Below, piece by piece: positions 22,040 to 54,105 of a DNA stretch of 63,060 nucleotides (positions are counted from its first letter, which is position 1; the number at the start of each line of letters is the position of its first letter). Source of the DNA: Paludibacter sp. (GTDB lineage: Bacteria; Bacteroidota; Bacteroidia; Bacteroidales; Paludibacteraceae); the NCBI GenBank assembly GCA_027450045.1, contig DAIDKM010000005.1, forward strand, positions 1 to 63,060, in the 5' to 3' direction. A program made the translations under genes and the position numbers. The notes below the pieces were generated by a model. The model was not told the DNA's origin. It searched no databases and saw only the letters and a list, made by a program, of their open reading frames with translations.

Positions 22040-22948
22040 TCATCCGTTTTTTTGTATCTTGGAAAAACGATTCTCCAACGAAGGCGCCACCTGCATCAAC
22101 AGTGAATAGATGCTGCCTCGCTCCGCCGCAGTCCCCTGACTGAAAATGTCGGCAATCTCATCAATCTTGGCATCCAGAAACATCGTAACGACAATATTTC
22201 CGGGCAGATTCGCGTTTGCTTTGGCCAACAATGGTAACGCTTGTGCAATAGTAGCACGTCCGTTATCGGAATTATCAGCCATCATATCCAAACCCAACCG
22301 GTTATAATCGTAACTCAAAGTACGCATACCAGCCATTTTCGGGTCTAAAATTCCATTAATCAACGCATAGCGGTTTTGGTCGCTCTCAAACGCTTTCCAC
22401 CCCGATTCGTTGGACGATTGCATGGCGTTGGCAATAGCTTCCGCCCGTTGGTAAAAAGGAGAGCCACCCATCAATGCAAACGAATCGGCATCCTCGCCCA
22501 AGATCACGTAGCCATAAAACATCATAACCGCCATCAGATTGTTTTCCGTTTGGTTGTCGCTCACTTCAAGCGATTGGTTTTCAATGTAATTGAAGTTCAC
22601 ATTCTTATCGCGAAAGTTGAAAAGAGTAGTGACGTACGATGAATTAAACACCGGACGGCTCGACTGAATCTGCAATTCAGTGGTAAAATAATCGTTGGCG
22701 TATGCTTTTACGGTAAACACGAAGTTGCAGTCAATCCGTTCATTGGGGGCAAACACACGATTGCTCCATTTTCGGGAGTTCATCCAATCGTTGAGCGCCT
22801 TCTGAAGTGTCGTAAAAACCTGCTTATTCGTTCCCTGAATCAAACTCGAGTTCACTTGCACGTGGCAATTAAGCTCTTGCGCCGAAAGAGGAACCAGAAA
22901 GAAAAAACAAAAAAGCCCCACCAAGAAATTTCTCATACTAAGAAGCAA
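22040..22948 (-). CDS. DUF4835 family exported protein (possible T9SS accessory, PorD-like)
   Basis: 302 residues with a signal peptide (LVGLFCFFFLVPLSAQ). The mature part starts with ELNCHVQVNSSLIQGTNK, and contains NRVFAPNERIDCNF and FYGYVILGEDADSFALMGG, typical of DUF4835. From memory, recent annotation schemes name this family PorD and link it to T9SS; I treat that as unconfirmed. Periplasmic or outer membrane-associated. It is first of an operon with recN and has a promoter box at 23018-23025. Confidence 0.82.
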   Translation of the reverse strand: MLLSMRNFLVGLFCFFFLVPLSAQELNCHVQVNSSLIQGTNKQVFTTLQKALNDWMNSRKWSNRVFAPNERIDCNFVFTVKAYANDYFTTELQIQSSRPVFNSSYVTTLFNFRDKNVNFNYIENQSLEVSDNQTENNLMAVMMFYGYVILGEDADSFALMGGSPFYQRAEAIANAMQSSNESGWKAFESDQNRYALINGILDPKMAGMRTLSYDYNRLGLDMMADNSDNGRATIAQALPLLAKANANLPGNIVVTMFLDAKIDEIADIFSQGTAAERGSIYSLLMQVAPSLENRFSKIQKNG

Positions 22949-23017
22949 TGAAGTCTGTTACTCAGAATAACCTGCCTTTTCGCCCACAACGGCTTCAGGA
23001 TGCACTCAACACACAGA

Positions 23018-23025
23018 CAAAATTA
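23018..23025 (-). promoter_or_regulatory. -7 promoter box (TAATTTTG) for DUF4835-recN
   Basis: Exact TAnnTTTG match on the minus strand, 69 bases before the DUF4835 start. Confidence 0.55.
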
Positions 23026-23135
23026 CGACAATAATTTCAATAAATCATGGTACTGGTAGTTGGCTTTCGCTGCAAATGAAAGACTCAGACAAACATAGTT
23101 TCGCCTTTAGATTCTGTTATTCCTGCCTTTTTCGC

Positions 23136-24224
23136 TTAATTGAAATCTATTGTCTCAAAAAATTTGCGACCCAATGAATATGGTATAACTTCGTCGTGTT
23201 GTAAGCGTCCAATTATTATAGCGGGGTGTGTATTGAATTTTTGAGCAAATCTCACAATATCAGCTTCAGAAATCGCCTGTTGGCGCAACACTTCATTTTC
23301 TTCTGCTTTCGAAAAAGTCCATTTAATTGCAAATTCATTTGCTTCCTGTTCTTTATCGGTATCTTTATCAGAATATTCAACATTTTCCAGAAAAATATCT
23401 TTCTTGCCATGTAACAGGATATGCCCTGCTTCGTGAAAGAACGTAAACCAAAATGCATCATTCCTTTTATACCTGCCTGTCAGTTGTATGAATGGTGTGT
23501 CATTCAGCCAGCGTGTTGACCCATGAATAGGTGCTTTGGGCAAACAGGGAGTATGTATCACTTTCACTCCGGCTTTAAGACAAATAGCCTGCAATTGTTG
23601 AAAGAAATCAACAGGATGACTTGCCATCAACGATTTTATTTCAGGCAAAAGTTCTTTAAATCTTTTCTCCGAATATTCAACTGTAGGCAATTCAGTGGCC
23701 TGTATTTCACCTTTGCGCAACCAAGCCGACAACGCGTAAGGCTCGGATGTGTGCGCTAAGGAAATACGAAAAGCTACTTTCAGTTCCTGATTAAAATAGT
23801 AATCGTGCCAGGCATCGGGATTACTTACACCAAAAAAGGACAACAATTCCATCGTTTTCTCTTCCATATTCGACACAGCATGTATCCAACCTTTTTTTAT
23901 CATATCACTTAATGGAAACTGCTTTGCCCATGATACGGCATCTTGTATTACCGCTTTGCGTTTTTCGCGGGCTATGTATTCATCATAGCTACGTTGATTA
24001 TTCATCCAAAAGTGAGCCGGTATTTTAGTTACGCTCTCAAATTGAATTGCCATATCGGGGGTAATGGCGCTTTCACCTTTTAAGACCGCAATAATTGTTT
24101 TCTCGGGCTTGCCTGTACGCACAGCAAACTCTTTCGGTCCCATGCCCATTTCCATCATCTTTTCTTCCAGTGTTTCTCCGGGATGCGATACCGATTGTGG
24201 AAAATATTGATTTTGCTTTGTCAT
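23136..24224 (-). CDS. HigA-type antitoxin fused to an ImmA/IrrE metallopeptidase
   Basis: 362 residues. Residues ~12-75 form an XRE/HigA helix-turn-helix (HPGETLEEKMMEMGM, then GKPEKTIIAVLKGESAI). Residues ~230-300 carry an ImmA/IrrE zinc-protease motif, HEAGHILLHGK (HExxH). It is encoded two bases after the toxin-like gene, so the pair is a toxin-antitoxin operon with toxin first, the higBA order. The peptidase could cleave the regulator or the toxin's partner under stress; that is inference. It probably autoregulates through the inverted repeat at 24592-24608. Confidence 0.87.
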   Translation of the reverse strand: MTKQNQYFPQSVSHPGETLEEKMMEMGMGPKEFAVRTGKPEKTIIAVLKGESAITPDMAIQFESVTKIPAHFWMNNQRSYDEYIAREKRKAVIQDAVSWAKQFPLSDMIKKGWIHAVSNMEEKTMELLSFFGVSNPDAWHDYYFNQELKVAFRISLAHTSEPYALSAWLRKGEIQATELPTVEYSEKRFKELLPEIKSLMASHPVDFFQQLQAICLKAGVKVIHTPCLPKAPIHGSTRWLNDTPFIQLTGRYKRNDAFWFTFFHEAGHILLHGKKDIFLENVEYSDKDTDKEQEANEFAIKWTFSKAEENEVLRQQAISEADIVRFAQKFNTHPAIIIGRLQHDEVIPYSLGRKFFETIDFN

Positions 24225-34319: not shown

Positions 34320-34363
34320 CCTCCTATCTACCTCCTATGCAACTCCTATGTAACTCCTATACA
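34320..34363. repeat. Four tandem copies of an 11-bp unit
   Basis: Units cctcctatcta, cctcctatgca, actcctatgta and actcctataca at 34320, 34331, 34342 and 34353, all sharing CTCCTAT. They lie 77 bases before the DUF6266 gene. Role unknown. Confidence 0.85.
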
Positions 34364-53511: not shown

Positions 53512-53749
53512 GGTGATGGTTTTTTGTGATTTTGTTTACTCAATGACAAACGCCTAACAATTCGATCACTAAATACAAGTCTTTACTATCATATTCTCTT
53601 TTTCGGCTACAAACATACGCTTAATTTTTAGCAATATACATGTTTCGTGGAAATATTTTCAGGCTATCGAAAACAAAGCATCAAAATGAAAAAAGTTGAC
53701 AATCTGCGAAAACAGATGTCCAACATTCAAAAAAAAGACACGTTGTTTT

Positions 53750-53941
53750 TTATAACAATAAAGATTTTAATTTTGGAGGGGGTACTTCGGAAGTACCTCC
53801 ACTCTCTTCCAACATAAACAGGTTCATGTTTGAAATAAACAAATTCATCTTTAAGGTAAGTTGATTTATCACTGAGGTAAACTCATTTATGGTTGAAGCA
53901 GGCAAGTTCACTTTCTGAGTAAGCTGATTTATAGTTGGCAT
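53750..53941 (-). CDS. Possible short heptad-repeat protein
   Basis: 63 residues, built from six heptads of the form I/V/M-N-x-L/F-x-x-x (TINQLTQ, KVNLPAS, TINEFTS, VINQLTL and so on), followed by a GGTSEVPPP segment and a short basic tail. Hydrophobic residues at heptad positions a and d would suit a coiled coil. The frame is only the right-hand part of a longer 21-bp repeat array that is interrupted upstream by an in-frame TGA, so this may be a remnant or not coding at all. Confidence 0.25.
   Translation of the reverse strand: MPTINQLTQKVNLPASTINEFTSVINQLTLKMNLFISNMNLFMLEESGGTSEVPPPKLKSLLL
53776..53801. repeat. Hairpin (GGTACTTC-G-GAAGTACC) beside the heptad repeat
   Basis: Perfect 8-bp inverted repeat with a one-base centre, extended by GGAGG and CCTCC with two extra G. 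It encodes GGTSEVPPP in the minus frame. No T run follows, so it is not an obvious terminator. Confidence 0.7.
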
Positions 53942-54016
53942 GAACTTGCTTATGTTGAATATACTTCAGTTCACCACTGTGGTTATCTCGCTTAACTTCG
54001 AGGTGAGCCAACTTCT
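53807..54016. repeat. Ten tandem 21-bp degenerate repeats
   Basis: Units start at 53807, 53828, 53849, 53870, 53891, 53912, 53933, 53954, 53975 and 53996, with no indels. On the minus strand each unit reads as seven codons with a hydrophobic codon first (ATA, GTG, ATG, TTA), Asn or Ser second, and usually Leu, Phe or Ile fourth. The AA- and TT-rich spacing is conserved by codon position, which suggests a coiled-coil coding origin. Confidence 0.85.
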
Positions 54017-54105
54017 GTTTTGACATAACGATTGACTACTCATTCACTCTTAGCTTGTACGATAATATACGATAGGTTTGCTTGTGAGCGAGAAAAAGAA
54101 AAACG

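Follow-up and report, generated by a model that had tools for sequence, protein, structure and literature searches.

Tandem arrays of palindromic units, in most cases with a period of 21 bp, have their home on the 3′ side of one gene, and a strongly diverged array of this class is present in the stretch of Paludibacter sp. DNA analysed here (63,060 nucleotides in all, hereafter the window). The class combines linkage to the gene, a mostly fixed two-turn period, palindromic units, a unit sequence that is specific to the lineage and orphan copies away from the gene. With moderate confidence, the window array is taken to be such a stray copy, and the palindromic units of the class to be sites that the cognate protein, or a partner of it, would bind.

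Extent and register of the window array

Ten units of exactly 21 bp had been described in the earlier note between positions 53807 and 54016, and these are real and free of indels. Over this stretch, the strongest of the window at lag 21, the self-match is 0.476 at lag 21 and 0.544 at lag 63, compared with 0.407 for the 99.9th percentile of 1000 block-of-two shuffles (maximum over lags 6–69). Only one of the 70 window tiles of 900 bp, that of the array, scores 0.55 or more with 21, 42 or 63 as best lag; tile 22501–23400, with a best lag of 42 and a score of 0.52, stays under this cut. The array went undetected by Tandem Repeats Finder; its units are approximately half identical to each other. 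Elsewhere in the window, an 11-bp tandem repeat (CTCCTATCTAA, 3.6 copies) is found at 34321–34360.

The hairpin that the note had placed beside the array is indeed present, but not as a separate element: its dyad (53789) and the dyads obtained from the ten units alone coincide modulo 21, which has a chance of 1 in 21. As the two sets of dyads share one register, the array is considered to comprise 12 units, from 53779 to 54030, with the hairpin as the first of them. Three of the 12 (those at 53800, 53884 and 54010) pair poorly, at 1–2 of 10 dyad positions. The features of the region are:

53709–53771, plus strand: similarity to the 3′-terminal part of an rsmI-like gene, by local score against the G004 gene and that of the own genome
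53750–53941, minus strand: spurious 63-codon open frame (MPTINQ...GGTSEVPPP...) over the hairpin and approximately seven units
53779–54030, no strand: orphan array of twelve 21-bp units with a common dyad register (ten units, hairpin unit and one end unit)
53781–53797, no strand: hairpin GGTACTTCGGAAGTACC with perfectly palindromic arms, first unit of the array; single occurrence in the own genome
53807–54016, no strand: the ten diverged units of the earlier note, palindromic at p = 0.008

Arrays on the 3′ side of one gene

In another family (f3), two genomes (G277 and G357) carry the hairpin and the array directly behind a gene for a protein of approximately 160 residues. Neither Pfam nor NCBIfam gives a match to the G357 protein at E ≤ 1, and homologues of this protein were found in 11 of the 61 genomes searched (own genome and relatives). 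The homologue of the own genome (G000:C53) is intact, with 58% identity (E 2e-55), and has no array behind it, only a one-unit remnant; the DNA downstream of this remnant hairpin and that downstream of its counterpart in G002 match at 68/82 bases. A gene fragment seen by eye in G002:C272 is not claimed, tblastn with the own protein giving no match there at E ≤ 10. Named genome contigs yielded 185 relatives, the best 80 of which were kept as loci. These best 80 come from Bacteroidales, Pedobacter, Solitalea, Taibaiella and Flavobacteriaceae and, by record title, also from Spirochaetia, Treponema, Verrucomicrobiaceae, Ignavibacteriales and others, where titles of metagenome-assembled genomes are possibly mis-binned.

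The 3′ flanks of 13 homologues, when read by eye, showed most of these genes to be followed by a different tandem array. The lag counts on the 80 loci take in those with enough flank. Within 600 bp behind the stop, the best lag is 21 or 42 with a score above 0.45 at 68/78 loci, and in front of the gene at 1/76. With flanks of 900 bp and a best lag of 21, 42 or 63 at a score of at least 0.55, the figures are 55/72 behind and 1/69 in front, and the same criterion applied to control flanks gives 1/64 further behind and 0/65 further in front. When any score is accepted, they become 65/72 behind, 9/69 in front, 11/64 far behind and 4/65 far in front. A separate sample of the phylum, in which the gene is present in 15/158 genomes and multicopy in some, gave a best lag of 21, 42 or 63 in 13/19 flanks behind the gene (scores 0.45–0.93) and in 1/19 in front, after removal of three of 22 rows (those of the own gene, of a fragment and of the second piece of one gene) and with three lag-43 flanks counted as misses. 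An array could be delimited at 62/80 loci, starting at a median of 98 nt behind the stop (range 5–541) and with a median length of 211 nt; two of the 18/80 loci for which none was delimited are short of 3′ flank.

The period varies at a few loci. Lag-43 arrays are found in the 3′ flanks of L163 (G579:C118; 0.93), L162 (0.49) and L164 (0.58), and are a variant with a longer doublet unit. The flank behind L087 has a period of 20 bp (60-bp) rather than 21, and at L174 (G532:C2:303890) it is the 5′ side of the gene that shows an array-like period (0.67 at lag 43, 0.64 at lag 21).

The protein, approximately 155–160 residues long and encoded by a solitary gene, is modelled with a pLDDT of 91 as all-helical, with one helix of 55 residues. 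Foldseek returned no solved structure at E ≤ 0.001. In a second look, the best fold match was a type III secretion inner-rod/needle chain (Z 6.3, rmsd 3.9 over 62 residues), which is within the range to be expected of helical models, the second look as a whole producing low-scoring helical arrangements. The proteins are mostly acidic, with a median pI of 5.6 (4.6–9.2) and a median net charge of −2. Seventy alignment members gave only scattered weak matches to Pfam, NCBIfam, PHROGs and PADLOC, in one to three members each. Among them, no ParB-type or other known centromere-binding domain was found in Pfam or NCBIfam at E ≤ 0.01, and no tyrosine (HUH) transposase family in Pfam; the scans against Pfam, NCBIfam and PHROGs contained no family of transposases or integrases, and no Rep family is among the Pfam and NCBIfam matches of the gene family. 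An all-against-all comparison of the frames within 3 kb on each side at the 80 loci gave no partner gene that is conserved: among the neighbour groups not overlapping the gene, the widest is present at 9/80 loci, in scattered positions, and the one member scanned showed a histidine kinase.

The units are contiguous, without spacers, and in 44/62 arrays their palindromy is significant (p < 0.05) when tested by column permutation. When 55 non-redundant arrays (the 62 minus seven near-duplicates) are aligned on the dyad, they have in common a loose palindromic core, TnGnnnCTCnGAGnnnCnA, with T at −2 and A at +2 in 37/55 consensus units (null mean 7.8, maximum 15, in 300 permutations). A test on 18 independent arrays of more distant members did not firmly reproduce this core, with 6/18 against a null of 3.0 (p = 0.065), the initial count of 8/20 having been lowered by removal of two loci that duplicated the training set. 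The dyad consensus is strand-symmetric, and GT and AC mismatches across the dyad are nearly equal (174 and 192, in the 23/55 arrays that pair at more than 50%), so that neither strand appears favoured as RNA. A terminator-like hairpin is present between stop and array in 30/61 cases, as opposed to 4 in shuffled sequences and 5 in a gene-end control. The terminal unit GTGGGAGGGGGTACTTC is present in the relatives of the window array and, in much the same form, at L155 and L156; as a universal terminal cap it was rejected, being found with up to 4 mismatches in 2/78 3′ flanks, 2/78 shuffled flanks and 0/75 5′ flanks.

Unit sequence follows protein identity weakly (Mantel r 0.22, p 0.001, 57 arrays). 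Three pairs above 85% protein identity have near-identical units, and for 45 pairs at 70–85% the mean unit similarity is 0.668, with a few values up to 0.95, against a background of approximately 0.62. Six pairs of paralogues from the same genome were also compared: four are near background (0.56–0.65), including L060 and L080, the proteins of which are 80% identical and the units of which have a similarity of 0.56, and two are alike (0.79 and 0.80). Residues 147, 39 and 98 of L057 exceeded the global 95% threshold in an exploratory column scan of 36 arrays for residues that may read the arms of the unit; nothing is drawn from this, because relatedness was not fully removed.

Orphan arrays and the origin of the window copy

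Whole-array BLAST searches gave some match at E ≤ 1 in 89 of 101 genomes, most of them near E 0.01–1 and taken as chance; follow-up was confined to G004 (two places), G002 and G062. In G004, of the same genus, a copy of hairpin and array with 83% identity is found at another locus, behind a gene of the tetrapyrrole-methylase family, presumably rsmI and here called rsmI-like; at the G004 site that matches the window, the last units alone remain. The own genome also holds an rsmI-like gene (90% identity to that of G004), with a worn array copy behind it by eye. The stretch 53709–53771, just before the window array, reaches a local score of 58 against the G004 gene (0/2000 shuffles as high, maximum 43) and of 45 against the gene of the own genome (1/2000 shuffles as high). 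From this resemblance to the 3′ end of the rsmI-like gene, the window array looks as if it had been copied from that site, and 53709–53771 is probably a piece of flank that travelled with it.

Two further orphans come from outside the genus. The array of G062, within f3, is one of them, in a genome in which no homologue of the gene was found at E ≤ 1e-4. The other, in Tannerella forsythia (the L096 genome, G448:C125:15074–15319), has the same unit as the gene-linked array of that genome and a unit different from that of the window. Beside this orphan, by eye, is an apparent copy of part of the DNA downstream of the gene-linked array, and an 84-codon frame follows. In G585, a pattern specific to the unit matches the gene-linked array and one single site elsewhere, which argues against orphan arrays being the rule in that genome. 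The orphans of the window, the rsmI-like locus, G062 and Tannerella are secondary copies, some of them with copied flank. The intergenic repeat family that the earlier note had offered as one of two possibilities is thus borne out by related arrays at other sites of the genus, in another family and, with a different unit, in Tannerella. In the search of relatives for unit and hairpin that it had proposed, copies of the array were recovered in G004 and in f3 genomes, and the hairpin 17-mer was found in 4 of 393 genomes of the order, the own genome (G000) and three of one genus.

Interpretation and relation to known systems

Twenty-one base pairs correspond to two turns of B-DNA, so that successive units face the same side of the double helix. 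With units that are palindromic, strand-symmetric and often placed behind a terminator, the simplest reading is that they are double-stranded DNA sites for a dimer, and the array is likely to work as double-stranded DNA. The constancy of the gene–array pairing, in turn, points to the protein of the neighbouring gene as the binder. A dimer of the protein, or else a partner, would bind each palindromic unit of its own array, and the bound units, lined up on one DNA face, may form a nucleoprotein complex comparable to that of F-plasmid ParB on the tandem sopC/parS repeats or of replication initiators on iterons. The genome of the window would then be one that has kept the gene (G000:C53), followed by a single remnant unit, with an ageing array of 12 units persisting in the window. 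Taken together, gene and array suggest an undescribed system of a protein and its landing strip.

Several observations fit less well with this proposal. The mostly acidic proteins have no recognised DNA-binding domain or fold; the fast turnover of units, the mean similarity of which is barely above background between proteins that are 70–85% identical, is hard to reconcile with a protein that reads the arms; and the core did not hold firmly in the 18 independent arrays. There are, in addition, the orphan array of G062 without a homologue found, the 18/80 loci without a delimited array, a plasmid homologue without array (see below), the periods of 20 and 43 bp and the array-like stretch in front of L174.

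A bolder version of the proposal, which we hold only tentatively, sees in the pairing a new chromosomal module, made of a solitary protein family and a private, rapidly replaced satellite array in which period and palindromy are conserved and sequence is not, with many paralogues each having its own address. If true, bacteria would have their own equivalent of the fast-evolving satellite arrays that are paired with a dedicated protein, and the orphans would be secondary assembly sites.

That gene and array form a selfish element, the gene being mobile, the arrays its recombination or transposition sites and the orphans its scars, is judged unlikely. It would account for the neighbouring DNA that orphans bring along (the rsmI-like remnant and, by eye, the downstream flank in Tannerella) and for the patchy, in places multicopy, distribution of the gene. 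Against it stands the lack of any transposase or integrase family among the 70 members. Moreover, searches with one query found no match in 50,697 phage records and a match in 1 of 72,556 plasmid records, and none of 61 pattern stretches in viral contigs was a relative. The plasmid match (L154; Candidatus Thiodictyon syntrophicum pTs417, 375894–376361) is a distant relative on a gammaproteobacterial megaplasmid, annotated as hypothetical and without a 21-bp array behind it.

An array that works as RNA, transcribed and with units folding into hairpins to be read by a protein or nuclease, appears less probable again. Palindromic units, their position 3′ of the gene and the 31/61 arrays with no preceding terminator-like hairpin would agree with it, but the 30/61 arrays that do have one, and the strand-symmetric consensus, would not. 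G-U pairs should be better tolerated in a functional RNA strand, which the similar numbers of GT and AC mismatches do not reflect, and a search of the window with Rfam gave no family at gathering score, all three listed matches being below it. Of slightly lower probability still is a functionless satellite, grown by slippage and favoured by the intergenic slot, as the fast turnover of units and the strong divergence of the window array might indicate: chance growth would not give one period at 55/72 loci, nor does it fit with palindromes in 44/62 arrays and a shared core.

That the array is a decayed gene for a coiled-coil protein, the other possibility of the earlier note, we regard as highly improbable: it would draw on the equivalence of 21 bp and seven codons and on the one 63-codon frame that spans the hairpin and part of the array, but there is neither a codon-position bias nor a surplus of open frames, and the gene-linked relatives behave alike. 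The earlier note is right on the in-frame TGA and on the 63-codon frame; its codon-phase pattern does not hold, variability between the units of the window array having no codon phase (p = 0.31). Among the 62 related arrays, codon-position bias at p < 0.05 is found in 5, and the mean best open-frame fraction is 0.90 versus 0.91 in column-permuted arrays. The heptad-coding reading was therefore dropped, heptads having been seen because any 21-bp repeat amounts to seven codons. The arrays in the 3′ flanks of L065 and L068 give long open frames, for example with NENFL or LPES heptads repeated, which gene callers may annotate as heptad-repeat proteins. Annotators should be aware that 21-bp arrays can pass as such proteins.

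With regard to known systems, sopC of the F plasmid lies behind sopB. As far as the part of the source consulted describes it, sopC/parS consists of twelve 43-bp repeats holding ten 16-bp inverted repeats bound by the partner protein (PMC6238139). The arrays studied here are similar in being tandem palindromic sites of several turns beside a gene, but the gene family has no ParB-type domain and no conserved partner gene, the units are lineage-specific, and the period is 21/42 bp in most rather than 43. Iteron control arrays, such as P1 incA and F incC, are direct repeats of approximately 19–22 bp, two turns apart, behind the gene of their binder; to our knowledge, iterons are not palindromic as a rule. 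Direct repeats at approximately two turns behind a gene are found here as well; unlike in iteron replicons, there is no Rep domain, and the only match among the 72,556 plasmid records has no array. The part of PMC6090056 at hand treats other iterons. The arrays may thus work most like plasmid centromeres or iteron control arrays, and yet appear to be members of neither, because ParB and Rep domains and a conserved partner gene were not found.

Other comparisons are more distant. The parS of pSM19035 has, in the portion consulted, 7–10 contiguous short repeats bound by dimers of the Omega protein (PMC9499535); contiguous short repeats are a common trait, but those of pSM19035 are 7-bp non-palindromic units over promoters, read by a ribbon-helix-helix protein. 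The BrickBuilt MITE of Porphyromonas gingivalis is, like the arrays here, an intergenic tandem repeat at several genome loci, a minisatellite with 19 elements in one genome, a 23-bp unit, and a leader and tail with terminal inverted repeats, a companion gene not being mentioned in the part seen (PMC4596501). The 21-bp register of the window sets it apart from the 23-bp unit, to the extent of that part of the published description. REP palindromes with RAYT transposases are, according to the section consulted, short palindromes mostly downstream of genes (PMC3733652); here, by contrast, the tandem register is strict and the companion has no tyrosine-transposase domain. CRISPR-type arrays differ by their unique spacers, the present units being contiguous. 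Among the titles and abstract openings returned by searches of open-access papers, none describes this array.

A widespread family for which Pfam and NCBIfam hold no model is thus tied to palindromes spaced at 21 bp, and for most homologues the array provides a candidate cognate DNA. The pairs may constitute a natural set of orthogonal protein–array combinations. If the protein does organise DNA on its arrays, it would represent a new class beside the few bacterial protein-on-repeat assemblies that are known, and one that is found mostly off plasmids.
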